64,000 nucleotides of DNA from Lineus longissimus (lineage: Eukaryota > Nemertea > Pilidiophora > Heteronemertea > Lineidae), in NCBI RefSeq assembly GCF_910592395.1, contig NC_088308.1:23265501-23329500 (forward strand), written 5' to 3'. Shown here piece by piece: positions 11,977-38,900 of the stretch. Position 1 is the stretch's first letter; the number at the start of each line of letters is the position of its first letter. Under the pieces are notes generated by a model. It had not been told where the DNA came from and did no database searches. It was given only the letters and a program-made list of their open reading frames with translations. The position numbers and the translations under genes were made by a program.

Positions 11977-14900
11977 ATGGCTGGGAGATGCAAAACGATG
12001 AGTGTAATAGAATCAAAATTAATAGCTCACAACACACTGCGGAGTCTGGTGTTATTTTGTGTTATATTCTCAGCAAATTGTGGACCACCAGAGACCTTCA
12101 CGTATGATGGGCAAGTCCAAGATGGACACCCGTTAAAAACATCCACAGATCTCTTCATGGACCCCTGCAAAGCTGGTAAGTCCCTTTTTACTCGATTTTT
12201 ACTGTAAACTAGACTACAGAGTACATGTGCCCTTTTTTAAATCTTGGTTGGAGTATTCTTTTTCTGCTTTAAAGTAGGCCAGGGTACTCCCTTTTCACTT
12301 TCAACGACTCCTTTTCTTCTTCAAACTGAGCTCGAGATTCTTTTTTTGCTTTCAACTAGGCCAGAGTAAAATGTCCTGCATTTACTCGACAAGGCATGTC
12401 ATCCTGGCGGCGCTTTACAACTACTTGTACTGAATAATTCAATGACCGCTTTTTCAGTTCAAGTTAAGTGGCAGAAATACAATTCCCTAAGTGTCCATCC
12501 ATCCATCCATCCACGAGTCTGTAGCCGACTTCCATGAGTTTACAATACATTCTCAGTCCAGGAACATCGTCAGCCTAAATGATCTCTCCCAATCTACATA
12601 TTGGTACCCATACATTCTCAGTCCAGGAACATCGTCAGCCAAAATGATCTCTCCCAATCTACATACTGGGTACCCATACATTCTCAGTCCAGGCCCATCG
12701 TCAGCCAAAATGATCTCTCCCAATCTACATTATTGGTACCCATACATTCTCAGTCCAGGAACATCGTCAGCCAAAATGATCTCTCCCAATCTACATACTG
12801 GTACCCATACATTCTCAGTCCAGGCACATCGTCAGCCAAAATGATCTCTCCCAATCTACATACTGGTACCCATACATTCTCAGTCCAGGCACATCGTTAG
12901 CCGAAATGATCTCTCCCAATCTACATACTGGTACCCATACATTCTCAGTCCAGGCCCATCGTCATTCAAAATGATCTCTCCCAATCTACATACTGGTACC
13001 CATACATTCTCAGTCCAGGCCCATCGTCATTCAAAATGATCTCTCCCAATCTACATACTGGTACCCATACATTCTCAGTCCAGGCACATCGTTATTCAAA
13101 ATGATCTCTCCCAATCTACATACTGGTACCCATACATTTTCAGTCAAGGCACATCGTCATTCAAAATGATCTACATATTGGTACCCGTTAAAATGGCGGC
13201 AAGGTTGACAAGAACCATTAGTTTAAAGTGCTTTACTTCAACCAAATCATTGTCAACAAGCTTGTTGTACATCTCCCGTACTCTAGCTAACCAACGCTTG
13301 TGATTGAGTCGATACCGATTACACATCTGTATTTGTAATGCAGTTCCCATTCCTTCGTTGGGTGCTGATTACCTTGCCCAAACTGATGAACTAAAGTTTG
13401 GTTATAGCGGACTCGTTTAAAGTCGTCCGCTGGCTATGTCTACCAATCACGTTGTTTATCTTCTGTGATTGAAAAGAAACTGCCGATCCAACGAAGATAC
13501 AGAACGTTTTTAGGGGAAAATGATAACCTTGTGAAAAGGTATATTGTGTTCGTAAACTCGAGCTTCACAATAAAAAAACGATTATTTGTGAAAGATAACG
13601 AGTTAAATGAACCATATAAAAACGAATATTGTCGCTTTTTATAATACATCGATTCATCACTGGGCTCAGCAAGATGTCAAGCTGTCTTGATATTTATGTT
13701 TCAAACCCTTCACATCTCTTCTGTTCTTTTTCATCTTCTGCGTTTGATGATTGGGTAGACTCTACCACATATTGGCACAGACATAACCCACATAATTTTT
13801 CATTCTCTAAAATGGCAATGGCCCTGACTGCATGCATCACGTCATCAAATCAACTTCGTCAATAAAATGCACTCCGTTGAGTCTCATATCTGTCTGCAAC
13901 AGCCTGACCTAAAGAATGCATAAAAAGCAGGTAAGGTCAGTGGCACAGTTTTTTTCTCATATGATATCTTCCAAAGCATCTTGTTTGATCATTCAAGATC
14001 AGTATCAAATGTTATGTTGATAATAATTTTTGTGATACAATTATGCGTGGGGTTGCTCTTAAACCTCAGAGTCACAATTTTTACCTCAAAGCCTCCACTA
14101 TTAATTCACTACCAATGAGAAATTTGCTCGTGTCGTCCTTCGTGCATCGGCTTTGAACATCAATCCTGCCATGCAGTCCGTCTTTCACCCTTTAATTATT
14201 AAAGCTGCCCATCAGGAGCCATTATAACACCTTGCGTTAGTTAGCCCTTCACCTGAAGTGGATGATGAGACCACTCGTCACTCGATAGCCAGCTGAGGGA
14301 CGTATTATTTTCTCTCTACACTCACCTTTTGACCGCCAATTCATACACACAATAAACTAAGAGCACCAGTGCGGGGCTGAGAGGTGCAGCCTCCCCCACT
14401 CCAGGGAGCAAATTCTCCAGACACGCTCCCTAACCTATTGCAGGTGCTTTCAGTTCTGAAGTAGCTCGATTGGTAACCTCAAGCAATTATTGAAGACGTT
14501 ATCTCAAGCAGTGATCGAAGCCGACGTAGATTCTGTCCCCAGCCAGTCGAGATCGTCCTCACATGATTGGTTCCCACCCAGAAGTTCTGTCAACATCCTC
14601 ATAGCTTCAAAGACTACGCCTACGCCCAGTTTACGTGCGGGAAGAACCCCGAAGCAGACTCTTCACCCACGTCAACCTTGAAGTCACCATTACCGTGATC
14701 ACAGGCATACTCACTTTGTTTAGTCTGTACTTTTTTGTAATTCAGATATGTTCTGTCATGTCTGATTTAATAGTGATGAACTTTACCATCACGGCAGTTA
14801 TTCTATGCATGTATACGCCTCCAGATGATAACCATTCGGGTTATCGATGAAGTGAATTAGAGATCAGTTTGGTGGCTAGCTCTCTGGGAGGTAGGCAGAG

Positions 14901-17900: not shown

Positions 17901-20900
17901 GCATGAACATCATTTGTCAGTTGTTACTGGACCGTGTGCGATGTGAGGGGTAACCTACAATTATCTTTCAAATGGCCATCAGCAATAAACCGTGTCTAAA
18001 CGGATTTTGACTGCGGCCATGGAATTGCATTTTGTTAAAAACCGTTTAACGATGTGTTTCATCTGTATGTGACCAACAGACAAACAATCAATACGATTTT
18101 GTCATACCTATCTATTGCCCAGGCATAGTCAAATCTGTCATAGTCCGATCATATCTCCTCTCACGAATTGACCCGTATTTCATTGCCGCCCGTCCTTACC
18201 AATGCTTTGCACTGAATGACTTGACACGTATTTCATCGTCGTCAGTCCTTACCAATGCTTTGCACCGAATGACTTGACACGTATTTCATTGCCGCCCGTC
18301 CTTACCAATGCTTTGCACTGAATGACTTGACACGTATTTCATCGTCGTCAGTCCTTACCAATGCTTTGCACCGAATGACTTGACACGTGTTTCATCGTCG
18401 CCCGTCCTTACCTTTCCAATGCTTTCCGCTGAATGACTCGACACGTATTTCATCGTCGTCCGTTCTTGAAACGTATTTATTCGTCGTCCGTTCTTACCAA
18501 TGCTTTAAACTGAATAACTTGACGTGTATTTCATCGTCGTCAGTCCTTACCAATGCTTTGCACTGAATGACTTGAAACGTATTTCTTCGTCGTCCGTCCT
18601 CACCAATGCTTTGCACTGAATGACTTGACGTGTATTTCATCGTCGTCATTTTCACCAGTGCTTTTGACCTGATGAATTTATATTTCTCTTGAAAGAGTTA
18701 ATGATAATTTCATTCCGTCAATAATGACATACATGCATACTCAGTAAAAAAATAACAGTGGTAAGGCCCATTGTAGGTCAGGAATGTAAATAGTACCTGT
18801 ATGTGTCAGTGGAAACGTGTCTTGAAAGGCTTTCTGTGTTTGTCCCAGTCTACATCAGTGTCAAGAGGCAGAACCTGATGCTCAAGACTAGAACAGTAAA
18901 CATAACTAATTGTGTCGACAAATAAAACGTCTCTTAACGAAAAGCGACAGTCAAGGGAGAAGATTTGGTCCTCTCAGGCACGATCACCATGTCACCTTGA
19001 AGTGTAACCTGTACGTAACTGAACCCGTTGGTTAGAACACGAACCAGATCTACCATCTTTTGATTTTTATACACTTTGAGGTCCCCTATCCCCATAATAG
19101 CAACAGATTGTCTTTTCAGGTTTCAATCAAATTAAATTTGCTATCTTATCTTAATACCACTGTATCTTCTTTTTCTTTTCAGATGGATATTTAGGTGATA
19201 TAGCTTTAAGTAAAAGTGAATACGAAACAGCCTCCGCGTTGCGGGAGGAATTAGACTCTAATGATGCCAAATTGGCTAAAAAACCTAATGAATTTATAGA
19301 AGTAACTACTCAAACAAATTCTGATTCATTATATGAATTGCCAAAAATATCTGTGAATAAAGACTTTGCGCGCAATTTTGAAGAAAAACGTCGACAACGA
19401 AAGAAGGATCGCAGACGGCGGAGAAGGTAGGATTGCCTTGCAATATTTCTTTAGCTTTCAGTTTATAGATTTAATTCAGCTTGCAAAGTTGGCATCTTAC
19501 ATCTGGCAGCTTTATCCCATGAAGGATGCAGTGTGTTAGTTTTCACGCTTTTTTCTGGTTACGGGCCTCAAACGACTCTCCGAAATCTTCTTGTGTTGCT
19601 CACTGGTGAACAATCACTCCTTTTTCAACAGATTCCGGAAATTCTATTGAGACCTGTAACCCGGCCCGTTACAGGGACACAACTCATAACTTTTTTACTG
19701 ATACCAAAAACTATCAGTTCGTTGCTGAGAAGCACTATACTGGTAACCAGTAAATGACTGAGAAATTGGTGAATATCACCACAATGTAATACACCTGAAA
19801 AACGTTAAAACCTTTCTTTGGAGGTAATTCCAGTTAGAGTTGCGTACGTTTAATACAGAAGACTGTTTCAGCAGCACTTCCAACATCATGTTACTCATTA
19901 GTCGGTGGCAAAAATCCAAATGATATCACCCCACACTATCGCCTGGTGGCAAATTAGCAAGAACTTTGCCATGTACTTAGACTAAGATACATTCGTACTA
20001 TCTGGCCCGATGGGTAGCATTCCCTAATTAAACTCAATGATACATCGCTAGAAGAGCACAATCAAGTGAGCTAGTGATTCCCGATGGTTGGGAGAAGGCA
20101 CTGTTTAAGCAGTATCTTTCGATTGTATGAAGTAACGGAAATTGACTCTTTATTTGTGTAATCAGACAGTTCGAAGTAAGAATAAACTGTTTTGAGAATA
20201 TCACGATGTGACGACTGCTTATCTGAATTAGATGAGTCTTCTTGAATTATTATAAAAAGCAACATACAAGGAAAACACTCTGCCTCAAGTACCCAGCGTA
20301 AAGGCTGATAGGCCAACTCTCAATTTATATTGGCCTACTTTACCAGGAACTGCGAATCAGATCGTTACTAGAAGAAGCTTATGATGCTGTTTCACCTGGG
20401 ATCTCTATATCGATGCACAAGTTACATCGAAATTGCGTAAACCTCGTTTGTAACTACGTATACATAGCATTTAACAGGAATCTGATTCATAGGAGCAGGT
20501 TCTTCAGCAGTAGTGTTACGTAGAAAATAGTTCTGGTCGGAAAGAAATCAGTATGCGGTGAAGGTTGTCCAATGATAGATATCTGTCCGATAATAGGTTG
20601 TCTGATGTAAAACAGGCAAAAATGACCAGTTCATCCTCGGTTTCAATTCATGTTACCAGATTTGCGAGTCGTGCAATTAATGCAATGCGATATTCTTACT
20701 AGAATAACACTTTAATTACAATGACATCCTTTATTTTCGGAAAATCAGAACATGGTGATTTTCGTAAGGTTGAAAAGAACTTAGTGGCTCTCATACGGGT
20801 CCCGTTTTCTTGCATCGAATAGATCAGTAACTTCAACGATACTAAATCATGATTCAATTGATAAATTTCTATGATTCAGCATCCTAACTTGCAAGGTTTC

Positions 20901-32900: not shown

Positions 32901-35900
32901 TTCACCCTGGTCCATTGCCAGAGATATTAGGTTTATCAAGGGAAGGAGTAGTGTGCATTTCAAGCAGCCTGTTTGAGTTTTACCTGTTTTGACACCATGT
33001 CAGATACAGGAATTTACATATTTGCATGACTGATCACTGTCTTGTCCTCAGGTAAAGATACTGTAACCTTAAAATTGTATGGACCAAACAGAAGTTCAAC
33101 ACCATAAAATCCATTGGCATGATTGTTTGGTGAGAGGTTTCTTTGATATCATCTTGACCCTCAATGTATTGCATTGCTCAGCTTCCAGACAACGCGGGGC
33201 GGGGCTACGGAGGCAATACCGATTGAAGTTCAGTTTGCTTTGATATGTGACGGCCCAATACTATAAGGAGGTAAAAAAACGTATTACTTGGGAAGGCGTT
33301 GTTTCTATTGTGTTACGATGGGAAACAATACCTTTACCCACCGTGACAATGAGAGGGCACTTATTGCTGCCATCAGTGTTTGCTCGAACTGACGGGGCAT
33401 CAATTTTGTTACAGGATGCGGCCGAACTTTCCAGGACTCAACAGCCACATTCTCATCTCCCAAGTCCGACCCCTCGAGAAGCCAGACTTGCCAGTGGAGG
33501 ATTTCAGCTACCCATGGCGAGAAGATGGTCCTCAACATCACCATGATAGACATTCCTGAGTCCCCTGACTGTCACTCGGATTATCTGGAGATCAGGGATG
33601 GGCATTGGTTGAAATCACCGTTACTTGGTAAGAAGGTTCACTGTGTAAACTCTGCACTGGTCAATTCTTTTATAAACAGCCAAAAAAAGGAAAGGAGGCT
33701 ATTTGATTATCAGCCAAGTTTCAGGCCCGTAGGCCTCCTGTTAGATACTAGTATTCTGTCCAAGCTTTCGACAATATCCGATAAATACATAGCCATTGGC
33801 CTAAGATCCGACCCACTTGGCTTCTTCCTGATTCTTTATGGGTACAAATTTTTCATCATTCGTATTTTACGACTGCCTCTTTTTTGTTTCAAAATAGGTC
33901 GATTTTGCGGCAACGGGAAGTTACCGGGGACCCTGATATCGAGTGACAGCAGAATGTGGATAGAGTACCACAGAGAGAAGGGCAGCCTGGGCTCAGGCTT
34001 TACAGCAAGTTACGAAGGTGAGGGCTGTGATTCCTGTCAAAGTCAAAAATCCTGATAAGATTTTTATAAGTTAAGATTCTTAGCTAAGAACTTATTCTGT
34101 TTATTATCAGATTCTTGTAAGATTCTGAATATTTACACGATCTTAACTCAAAATCTTAGAAGTTGCTGCTCAGAATCTGACAATCTTGTAAGCTTTTGAT
34201 TCCCGATCTTTAGGCAGAATCTTAAAACAATCTTGAAAAAGCTGTTGGATGGCTCATCTCTCGGGAAACAAGAGAGTCAGTGACATTCTGTTCTGTTCCG
34301 GAATGAATAACGGCGGGGTTTCACCAGCATTCTATTGATCCACATATCGTCTGATGGGGTGCATGATGCAAACTATGAGAAAATTGAGGAATGGAACAGC
34401 CTAATAAATGTAAAGCATTCCTTTCAACCGATCTTTTGAGTCGGTTACCAAAAAGAAATGTCAAAGATGTGATTCCTGACATGATTTTCTCGACTTGGTG
34501 ATATCATTACCGCTTGACGTAATGTTTTGCATGTGATCGACGTCTGTTAACAGCATGTATAACTTGATATCTAAAGAAAAAGCTGTAAGGAATGCTTTAA
34601 AAGACAAAAAAAGTTTTGTGTCAGTACTTGGTATAATTCAATTTGACACGATATTATGGTTCGTTTGCATTTCTGTGTCATATCATGGTAATCGAGTCAC
34701 CTTAGCTACAATAGAAAAAGACTTTCGTCGGTTTCCAGTTGGTGTTTAATAGACATAGACTTTATCCTGTACACATTGGAATTATTGACGAAAGTTATCC
34801 TAATTTGAAAGCACGTCAACAGTTGGGTGTGATATCTCGGCAAAAACAACGACTCTTTGCCGATTCCTGTGTGTATGTGTGTCATCGTTTTGAAGTAGCT
34901 GTGTCCCCCTGGAAAATTGTCCGGCCATATTGTATTCTGACGGATTTGGTATATGGTTTTAAAGAGACCATGACCTAGAGAAAAAAGCTTACAATAGAAT
35001 ACTGTTCCCCGGACATTCTATATTAGGACCCTTTGAAACTGATAGTTTTTCCACAATGAACTTGTTTATTTTGTAAAGTGCGACAGCTTAGAGGGGTCGG
35101 GGAAAGACTAAATGACGACCTCATATCTTAGTTACCATCTCATCTCTTGTCCCTCCTCAGCTAAGATTTTCAGAATTCGTACTCGATTACCGGAATACGA
35201 AAGGTTGCCAGTATGTATGATTTTGCTCATTGGTTCCCTGATATCATATTGCAAGCCAACAAATGAAAAAAAAAACATATAGGAAAGGAGTAATAGCTAT
35301 GTCATGCAATTTGCAGCTGTTTGCGGTGGGGAAATCATAAAGGAAGAAGGTCAGCTTACAAGTCCCAACTACCCCGACTATTACAAGCCCAGCAAGGAAT
35401 GCATCTGGAAGATCACAGTCCAGGAGGGTTACTCTGTCGCACTCAGGATCCAGTCACTCGAGGTTAGTTTGGTTGTGCTCCATATTCTGCGAATGTCCTA
35501 ATTCGCGGCTGTAATTGATTACTTTAGCGTCTCTTGCGGGGTTATTTCGTCCCAACAACTTAGTTCTTCATTTGATGAAGTCGATGATGAGTAGTGGTCA
35601 TCTTCTTGATTAGTTATAGGACGCAGTTACCCTCTTGAAAACCATAAACCAGAGATTTTGACCAGAAATTGTCAAAACCATGTAGCCATGCATTTGTGTA
35701 TCATCACGACAGTGACTGCATGTACATACTCATTGTTGGACTGAAACATATCATTTCTTCTTGGGAGACATTAAGGGTAAGCGAAAGACACTCGGGAAGA
35801 AAAGTAGTGTAACTCAGTTGAGCCATTTACTATATGTTTACGAAATCCTCATTGTTCTTACAGTCTCTCAGGTTTTCTCAGTTGATCCTGACTCCTTCTT

Positions 35901-38900
35901 CGGTCGTCTTGTTGCCTTGTACCGACAATTTTGGTGATTTGATCCTGTGTGACTAATTCTATTGATCATTGACGTTCCTCTGCCAGGAGGTATAGATTAT
36001 CGGCAGTAACTCAGTTACCTAATTTGATTGAATACTGCTGATGAAGTGCATTCACTGCCCAATATGTTTGTGAGAATCAATACTGCAAACTCGGCTCTGT
36101 TCTGTCAGGTGGCATTAAATAAAGGAAATAAGGAAACTTGCATCCTTCTCAAATACGTAACGAAAACCAATAAACGAAGGTGGAGTCTGGACTTTGAAAG
36201 GGACTTGTTGACCCCTGTCCAGCAGATTTGGTGATGACGTGGAGTTCTTCCGACCTTCCAACGGATGAGACATGGCCCGCATATATATGTTATGCTTTCA
36301 GATTGGATTTTTTCATCAGTTCAAAATTCTGATGCATTTTCAAAGTCCAAAAATGATGATGTCTCTTCATTTTGAGCAGAAAAAAAAATCAAATGAAAAA
36401 TCCAGTGGTCGTGGTGTAGGTACCGGGGTGGTCGTGTTACCGGGGGCCTTGTTATGGTAATTGGAGAGGAAACCATACGGGACCAGCGATTCTTGGTCGT
36501 CAGAGCGGGGTGGTCGCCTACCGGGGTTCCACTGTACTTGAATACATACAAGTCACTGGTACTGCCTTCCGTGGAGATAGGTCACACTAGCATTTCCCGA
36601 GGGCAACATGTAAACCATCCGTTGAACCTGGCCAGACCATTTCTCAGAATAATTACAATGCAGAAAGCTGCGAAAACATGTTAAGTAAGACGTATTTGCC
36701 AGCTGCTTTATCTTTCAACAGGCTCGTTCATTTCATTAGCCGATTGGCACGAACGATGCCTAGACAAGATAGCGAAGATGTTGATGAGTGAAATACCTGT
36801 CTGTGGTTATGTAATCTGATCGATACTACAAGCTCGTAACAAATTGCTCAAGGTTTTCAACAGACCACTTGCGGAAGTAGCTGGTTAGATGATTGGCACC
36901 GTACCTGTATAAGTGGTGTATACCGTACGTTACTACGTTCTATCAGGTATTTTGAAAAAATACCATTTCATAATCATCAAGAAGAACAGCTCAGGAGAAA
37001 TATCGCAGACCAATCGACCTTGACAATAAACCTCGTCCGCTGACTGTGTGATTCCGAACTTCTGTGTCTTTCTTCCTTCCGATTAAGAACTTCTTTGTCT
37101 TTCTCCCTTCAGATTAAAAAGTTCTTTGTCTTTCTCCCTTCAGATTAAGAAGTTCTTTGTCTTTCTCCCTTCAGATTAAGAAGTTCTTTGTCTTTCTTCC
37201 TTCCGATTAAGAACTTCTTTGTCTTTCTCCCTTCAGATTAAGAAGTTCTTTGTCTTTCTCCCTTCAGATTGAGGAGTTCCCTGTCTTTCTTCCTTAAGAT
37301 TAAGAGGTTCTTTGACTTTCTTCCTTCCGATTAAGAAGTTCTTTGTCTTTCTTCCTTCCGATTAAGAACTTCTGTGTCTTTCTTCCTTCCGATTAAGAAC
37401 TTCTTTGTCTTTCTCCCTTCAGATTAAAAAGTTCTTTGTCTTTCTCCCTTCAGATTAAGAAGTTCTTTGTCTTTCTCCCTTCAGATTAAGAAGTTCTTTG
37501 TCTTTCTTCCTTCCGATTAAGAACTTCTTTGTCTTTCTCCCTTCAGATTAAGAAGTTCTTTGTCTTTCTCCCTTCAGATTGAGGAGTTCCCTGTCTTTCT
37601 TCCTTAAGATTAAGAGGTTCTTTGACTTTCTTCCTTCCGATTAAGAAGTTCTTTGTCTTTCTTCCTTCCGATTAAGAAGTTCTTTGTCTTTCTTCCTTCC
37701 GATTAAGAACTTCTTTGTCTTTCTCCCTTCAGATTAAGAAGTTCTTTGTCTTTCTCCCTTCAGATTAAGAAGTTCTTTGTCTTTCTTCCTTCCGATTAAG
37801 AACTTCTTTGTCTTTCTCCCTTCAGATTAAGAAGTTCTTTGTCTTTCTTCCTTCAGATTGAGGAGTTCCCTGTCTTTCTTCCTTAAGATTAAGAGGTTCT
37901 TTGACTTTCTCCCTTCAGATTAAGAACTTCTTTTTCTTTCTCCCTTCAGATTGAGAACCATGATAACTGCGTGTATGATTACCTGGAGGTCCGTGACGGT
38001 CACTCTGACGACTCCGCACTCATTGGTCGGTTCTGTGGCTATAAGATGCCCGACGACATCAAGTCAACGTCAAATAAACTCTACGTCAAGTTCGTGTCGG
38101 ATGGATCAGTACAGAAGGCTGGCTTTGTTGCTCAGTTCATCAAAGGTATGCGGAGACCAAGACTTGTTTCCCCGGAAGCTTGACTTCCTTGGAATTTTCG
38201 ATGTCGCATATACGAGACTTTGTTTTTTTGGCTTACGATAACTTTCTCGTTAGCTAAATGCCAATCTGACAAAGCTTTTTTAATGCCCCATGAGTCAAGT
38301 TTTTTGCTAGCTCTTCTAAGTGAGGTTGCTCAAAAATCTTTGCTCTGTCCGAAACAATGTACTAAGATGTGCGGCGTTCAGAAATCTCAGCTCTGTGATA
38401 CTGCTAGTTTGATGCGACAGCTTTTTTGGAAATTGACTTTCTTCTACAAAAGCTCCTCGGACTTCTTTCAGAATATGATGAGTGTTTGACCGATGACCAC
38501 GGTTGTGAGCATGACTGCGTGAACACACTGGGAGGATACCGCTGTGAGTGCAAGATTGGGTACGAGCTGCACCCCGATGGCAAGAAATGTGAAGGTAAGG
38601 ATGATGAGCGGTGAGATTCTTTACTGTGACCACTGTTCCGTCACTTCATACGTACTTCTTTGGAAATCGTGATAAACAGTCAGTACGCGATTCACAAGGA
38701 TTGCTGTATATACTCATGGAAACTACTGTCGTTAGAACACTATATTCTGTACATCTACCGTATCTAACGCTATCTACGTTTGAGTCACAGAGACGTACAA
38801 AATATTTCAATTTGCTTGTTTTTATTTTCGTAGATGCTTGTGGAGGTTACATCGACGCTACCAATGGATCCCTCCAGACACCATCCTACCCCGATCTGTA

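Follow-up and report, generated by a model that had tools for sequence, protein, structure and literature searches.

Minisatellites that lie over intron/exon boundaries, called 'mirages', are known from amphioxus (the lancelet), where they are described in Adh3, in the globin genes BflGb6 and BflGb9 and in troponin C, with similar repeats in PGBD5; in the accounts cited here regular splicing seems unaffected by them (PMC3087553, PMC3902484), and it has been suggested that new introns may arise from boundary duplications (PMC3087553). We describe a comparable array in the ribbon worm Lineus longissimus (the bootlace worm), found in a 64,000-nucleotide stretch of chromosome 1 (contig 1 positions 23265501-23329500). 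This stretch is called the window below; coordinates follow its numbering, and all features of the gene and the array lie on its forward strand. The array consists of 29 tandem units of 31 bp that cross an intron/exon boundary of the tolloid gene. We consider it likely that it is a minisatellite that grew out of this boundary in the manner of a mirage, most likely as a tolerated accident without a function of its own.

The Lineus array resembles the mirages, as these are described, in that its unit crosses the exon/intron boundary and that the splice signal is present in many of the units, though not in all; the units are likewise of minisatellite length and arranged head-to-tail. It differs from them in its host, a nemertean protostome rather than a cephalochordate, in its copy number (29, versus the 6 and 3 given for two amphioxus BflGb6 haplotypes), in its unit length (31 bp, versus the 150-160 bp given for BflGb6, 157 bp for BflGb9 and 10-72 bp for Adh3) and in the presence of a 10-unit higher-order repeat. 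The open-access literature searched, subscription papers being outside that scope, yielded no array of this kind from a nemertean or any other protostome. Going by that literature, the nemerteans would be a new phylum for mirage-like minisatellites; the array would be a large example, exceeding the amphioxus globin case in copy number, and it would extend boundary-spanning minisatellites from cephalochordates to a protostome.

Three other systems were compared. The internal tandem repeats of human segmental-duplication genes also have minisatellite units, which average about 30 bp and in some cases lie at exon-intron boundaries, but these repeats are reported to comprise about 4 units and to alter gene structure or to be linked to new introns, whereas the Lineus gene model is unchanged (PMC2812944). 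Exons with distant branch points raise the same issue of a choice among the AGs downstream of a branch point; these exons are described as having long AG-free stretches upstream (PMC1431707), whereas the AG-exclusion zone of the Lineus acceptor is 23 nt and AGs abound, and the acceptor was therefore not assigned to that class. In earthworm metallothionein the repeats lie inside the first intron, and no boundary-spanning repeat is reported in the passages cited (PMC12783039). A paper on the human dopamine transporter (PMC2883569) has no bearing on the array.

The tolloid gene and the array at its exon boundary

The exons were placed with a human BMP1 sequence as the tblastn query. Joined in consistent phases they encode a protein of 913 residues with astacin, CUB and EGF parts, which is 100% identical over 100% of its length to the NCBI entry 'tolloid-like protein 1 [Lineus longissimus]' (P0001, 1105 aa); the second-best match, among the best 120 of 1364, is 75% identical and comes from Tubulanus polymorphus. 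The gene carrying the array is tolloid. The exon that precedes the array (35317..35462) encodes the first half of CUB2 and ends in phase 0, followed by GTTAGT; the exon adjoining the array (37950..38145, donor GTATGC) encodes the second half (IENHDNC...). The latter opens with ATT GAG AAC, encoding IEN, and in 10 aligned tolloids the E and N are invariant and the I is kept in 9. Because this exon start is conserved, it follows that the array units were copied from the exon edge. At the junction of the two exons neither the NCBI protein nor the 9 other aligned tolloids have extra residues, and the residues encoded by the array-adjoining exon are found in 10 of 10.

The array itself is real. Tandem Repeats Finder, run on the window, reported it at 37056..37957 with period 31, 29.1 copies, 0% indels and a score of 1384, in agreement with a unit table made by us. 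The units stand head-to-tail, and each consists of the last part of the intron, with its pyrimidine tract and AG, and about nine exon-derived bases. In acceptor register a unit mostly reads ATTAAGAA (in some cases ATTGAGGA, ATTAAGAG or ATTAAAAA), followed by the pyrimidine tract and by CAG, CCG or AAG; the leftmost of the 29 is cut by the array edge. CAG ends 16 units, the true acceptor included, CCG 10 and AAG 3, so that of the 28 units other than the true site 18 end in AG (15 CAG and 3 AAG decoys) and 10 in CCG. The first-pass annotation had described 29 units, 16 of them with CAG, in an array that includes the acceptor of a tolloid exon, and this description holds throughout: the acceptor is the last unit.

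The order of the units follows the 10-unit higher-order repeat. Two blocks of 310 bp and 10 units each (37056..37365 and 37366..37675) are identical, with units 28-20 recurring as units 18-10 and an exact internal repeat of 313 bp at offset 310; a third, diverged block of about nine units, one unit short, adjoins the exon (37676..37949; matched to the others by eye in the unit string). Unit types J, K and L occur once each, in this exon-adjoining block at the exon edge, as read in one haplotype. In amphioxus BflGb6, units at the cluster edge are described as escaping homogenisation (PMC3087553, PMC3902484). The annotation's 'alternating CAG/CCG variants' are both present, although the wording is loose for an order set by the higher-order repeat.

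Within the mismatch limit used, the unit is private to this locus. A pattern search of the whole genome assembly (391 Mb, 30 contigs) allowing up to 3 mismatches gave at least 26 unit matches, counts being lower bounds; all 26 lay inside the array and none outside it, and a DNA BLAST search of the genome found one place only. Copies elsewhere in the genome, as a dispersed repeat or mobile element would have, were thus not found in these searches. The published genome has the same size, in 32 scaffolds, with a chromosome 1 of 29.45 Mb, and was assembled with Hifiasm from 79-fold PacBio long reads of HiFi libraries (PMC8593623). With such data, and with an array of only 0.9 kb, an assembly artefact or a collapsed or expanded repeat is the least probable of the explanations weighed here, even though an exact internal repeat of 313 bp is a structure prone to misassembly. 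The copy number, read here from one haplotype, could differ between haplotypes.

True and decoy acceptors

The last unit (37919..37949) would be the working 3' splice site, as judged from frame and protein, with the CAG/ATT boundary behind the AG at 37948-37949. The AG-ending units were scored, as the first-pass annotation had suggested for each unit, with a weight matrix built from the 14 other acceptors of the tolloid gene, these 14 themselves being scored leave-one-out. The true site has the best score of the array, 10.6, and exceeds 12 of the 14 other acceptors, which span -3.7 to 12.2. The CAG decoys score 9.5 (13 units), 9.1 (one) and 8.2 (one), the three AAG decoys 1.4. The lowest CAG score belongs to the nearest CAG decoy, unit K (k=1; 37888..37918, its CAG ending at 37918), which has a 12-base tract and contains TTGAC. 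In a larger matrix of 49 sites the true site scores 15.7 and is exceeded by none of the 49, and the CAG decoys score 13.8-14.6, with a median that 92% of the 49 do not exceed; as 35 of these sites were chosen by the matrix itself, the 14-site version is preferred. An unbroken pyrimidine tract of 21 bases is found at the true site only. The AG decoys have 12-13 bases, and the longest pyrimidine run in the 14 other tolloid acceptors is 3-10.

Of all AGs in 35501-37949, the true one alone allows a stop-free, in-frame entry into the exon. The first-pass annotation had predicted a stop at codon 12 and truncation within CUB2 from any decoy. Truncation is borne out for 18 of the 18 AG decoys; codon 12 applies to 12 of the 15 CAG decoys and to the 3 AAG decoys, and in the remaining 3 CAG decoys the stop falls at codon 10. 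The exon measures 196 nt from the true site and would measure 227-1033 nt from the AG decoys.

These stops, together with the scores, raise the question whether the array is a splicing rheostat, in which the fraction of transcripts using a decoy would be destroyed by nonsense-mediated decay and would thus set the dose of tolloid, with array length as the tuner. The uniform stops would suit such a device, as would the 14 of 15 CAG decoys that outscore 10 of the 14 other tolloid acceptors (the 15th, the nearest decoy, outscores 8) and the moderate exon lengths of 227-413 nt that the nearest CAG decoys would yield. Yet with the exon's own first bases (CAGATTGA) and units of 31 bp (3n+1) a stop is automatic, and gives no sign of design. 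Moreover, the recent duplication of a block is unlike a conserved tuning device, splicing is reported as undisturbed by amphioxus mirages (PMC3087553, PMC3902484), and the best 120 of 1364 protein matches hold a single L. longissimus entry, although entries are clusters into which near-identical isoforms could be folded. We therefore regard a rheostat as unlikely. A little less likely again, in our view, is that unproductive splicing to these decoys, almost as strong as true 3' splice sites and varying in number with the length of the array, adjusts how much of a BMP-pathway protease is made; if true, each worm's minisatellite copy number would determine its tolloid activity and, through it, dorsal-ventral signalling.

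The repeated tract could also be thought to collect polypyrimidine-tract-binding protein, as an intronic silencer or sponge that would control inclusion of the exon. The array does hold 64 TCTT (UCUU in the transcript) sites, but these come with the amplified tract itself; furthermore, the exon's residues are present in all aligned tolloids, and skipping 196 nt would be expected to break the frame. Such a role is very improbable.

Hairpins of the array RNA might, finally, hide the decoys and expose the true AG. The core of each unit, AAGAA-N-TTCTT, is nearly self-complementary, and because of it the predicted fold is unusually stable: the minimum free energy of 37030-37990 is -243.2, whereas 20 dinucleotide shuffles average -193.4 (z -7.96), and only 1 of 60 column-permuted, repeat-preserving arrays folds as well as the 28 units (z -2.84). 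The true AG, however, is itself predicted to be paired, with probabilities of 0.79, 0.71, 0.95 and 0.93 in four settings, and the CAG decoys no more paired than the true AG numbered 1, 3, 11 and 4 of 15 in these settings. Sequestration of the decoys was rejected, pairing failing to separate true from decoy AGs, and we give the hairpin reading hardly any credence.

Choice of the splice site

If the array is a tolerated minisatellite, the preceding exon would be expected to join the last copy. This copy is expected to win because it adjoins the exon, gives the shortest exon and alone has the unbroken 21-base tract. Any leak to a decoy would meet a stop within 12 codons, and the transcript would then be expected to decay. 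TTAAG at 37920..37924, 26 nt before the true AG, is a candidate branch site. As the other units carry the same motif or a near variant (TTAAA, TTGAG), branch-point sequence by itself does not explain the choice. Another possible branch site, TTGAC, lies in the last-but-one unit, its A at 37904 and 45 nt from the true AG; a CAG 14 nt and an AAG 20 nt past this A stand in between. In the search for an AG downstream of a branch point, AGs nearer than 12-15 nt are described as bypassed (PMC1431707). Given the decoy AGs behind TTGAC, the working branch point is expected to lie closer to the true AG, for example at TTAAG. CTGAC, a branch-point-like sequence just upstream of the array (37040..37044; 906 nt from the true AG, as measured at the A), is possibly the ancestral branch point.

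Several observations weigh against this account. By score, the CAG decoys are strong acceptors. A strict search for the first AG would meet decoys first, whether it starts at CTGAC (A at 37043) or at TTGAC. The consensus YTNAY is absent from the AG-exclusion zone of the true site plus 15 nt, although it is likewise absent there in 4 of the 14 other tolloid acceptors and in 17 of the 18 AG decoys. Use of the last acceptor is, moreover, predicted from frame, homology and NCBI's gene model.

A branch-point starvation of the decoys was considered and dropped. Scoring of branch points, another check proposed with the annotation, placed YTNAY at 10-60 nt at the true site and decoy k=1 only, among 19 AG-ending sites, but the motif discriminates weakly: at 14-60 nt, 11 of 14 tolloid acceptors and 30 of 35 cubilin-like ones have it, but so do 62% of random positions. 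The two AGs that follow TTGAC within 20 nt undercut the idea further. The differences that would then remain between true and decoy sites are the length of the tract and the place next to the exon. The array is in this respect a natural assay of what makes the splicing machinery choose among near-identical 3' splice sites, and with so few visible differences (a tract of 21 versus 12-13 bases, and the exon-adjoining place) the weight of each becomes measurable.

Origin and growth of the array

At the left edge of the array, GATTCCGAAC (37050..37059) matches the exon-start sequence GATTGAGAAC (37949-37958) at 8 of 10 positions, at a distance of 899 bp, that is 29 x 31. This pair, in 31-bp register, is a plausible seed of the first duplication and would represent a short imperfect direct repeat that flanked the pyrimidine tract, with GATTCCGAAC in the intron and GATTGAGAAC at the CAG and exon start. 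A single slippage or unequal exchange, permitted by the flanking repeat, probably duplicated the tract, the AG and nine exon bases. Later exchange may have spread the units and, recently, the 10-unit block; the exact repeat of 313 bp indicates that growth of the array was recent.

The endings of the units point to the same kind of process. Units with CTCCC end in CAG in 15 of 15 cases, the true site included, whereas units with CTTCC end in CCG (10), AAG (3) or CAG (1). Since the CCG and AAG endings are linked to this one variant, one or two founder changes, multiplied as units were duplicated, account for the 13 lost CAGs. The 'partial silencing of decoys' that had been read into the CCG units is not supported, repeated silencing being unnecessary. 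Among the roles offered in the first-pass annotation the tolerated accident fits best, and the array is probably tolerated rather than functional. That annotation makes no mention of the higher-order repeat, of the 21-base tract confined to the true site or of the amphioxus precedent.

The near-palindrome AAGAA-N-TTCTT of the units (37056-37949, in the transcript) is formed where the exon-derived bases adjoin the tract. At a guess, it may help repeat expansion.

Other tandem arrays

Arrays longer than 150 bp were surveyed in 264 kb (the window and 200 kb downstream) and in 28 kb of a cubilin-like gene. The survey yielded 13, the tolloid array included and two neighbouring 53-bp stretches at 18168-18648 counted as one. 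Of the 12 others, 7 were read by eye, and none of these could be placed over an exon junction; most of the 264 kb is without an exon map, and no rate follows from this count.

Within the window, a minisatellite of 9.6 copies of 65 bp with 95% matches between copies lies at 12545-13172; inspection by eye showed no exon at its edges. The minisatellite at 18168-18648 is a nested 53-bp/106-bp repeat upstream of a tolloid prodomain exon.

The cubilin-like gene, on the reverse strand, contains several arrays. The one at L023 8285-8750 (G000:C13:1772285-1772750) consists of 4.9 copies of 96 bp that are 98% alike; its start lies 15 nt past a donor (GTAAGTGATTTTCTT), near but not over the boundary, and the acceptor-like TTTTGTACCCAG recurs in 5 of 5 units. 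In an intron of the same gene, 21 copies of 22 bp (L022 5345-5810; G000:C13:1759345-1759810) end about 67 nt before a predicted acceptor. Two further arrays with a similar unit of 15-16 bp (L023 999-1204 and 1671-1884; G000:C13:1764999-1765204 and 1765671-1765884) lie about 470 bp apart in opposite orientation.
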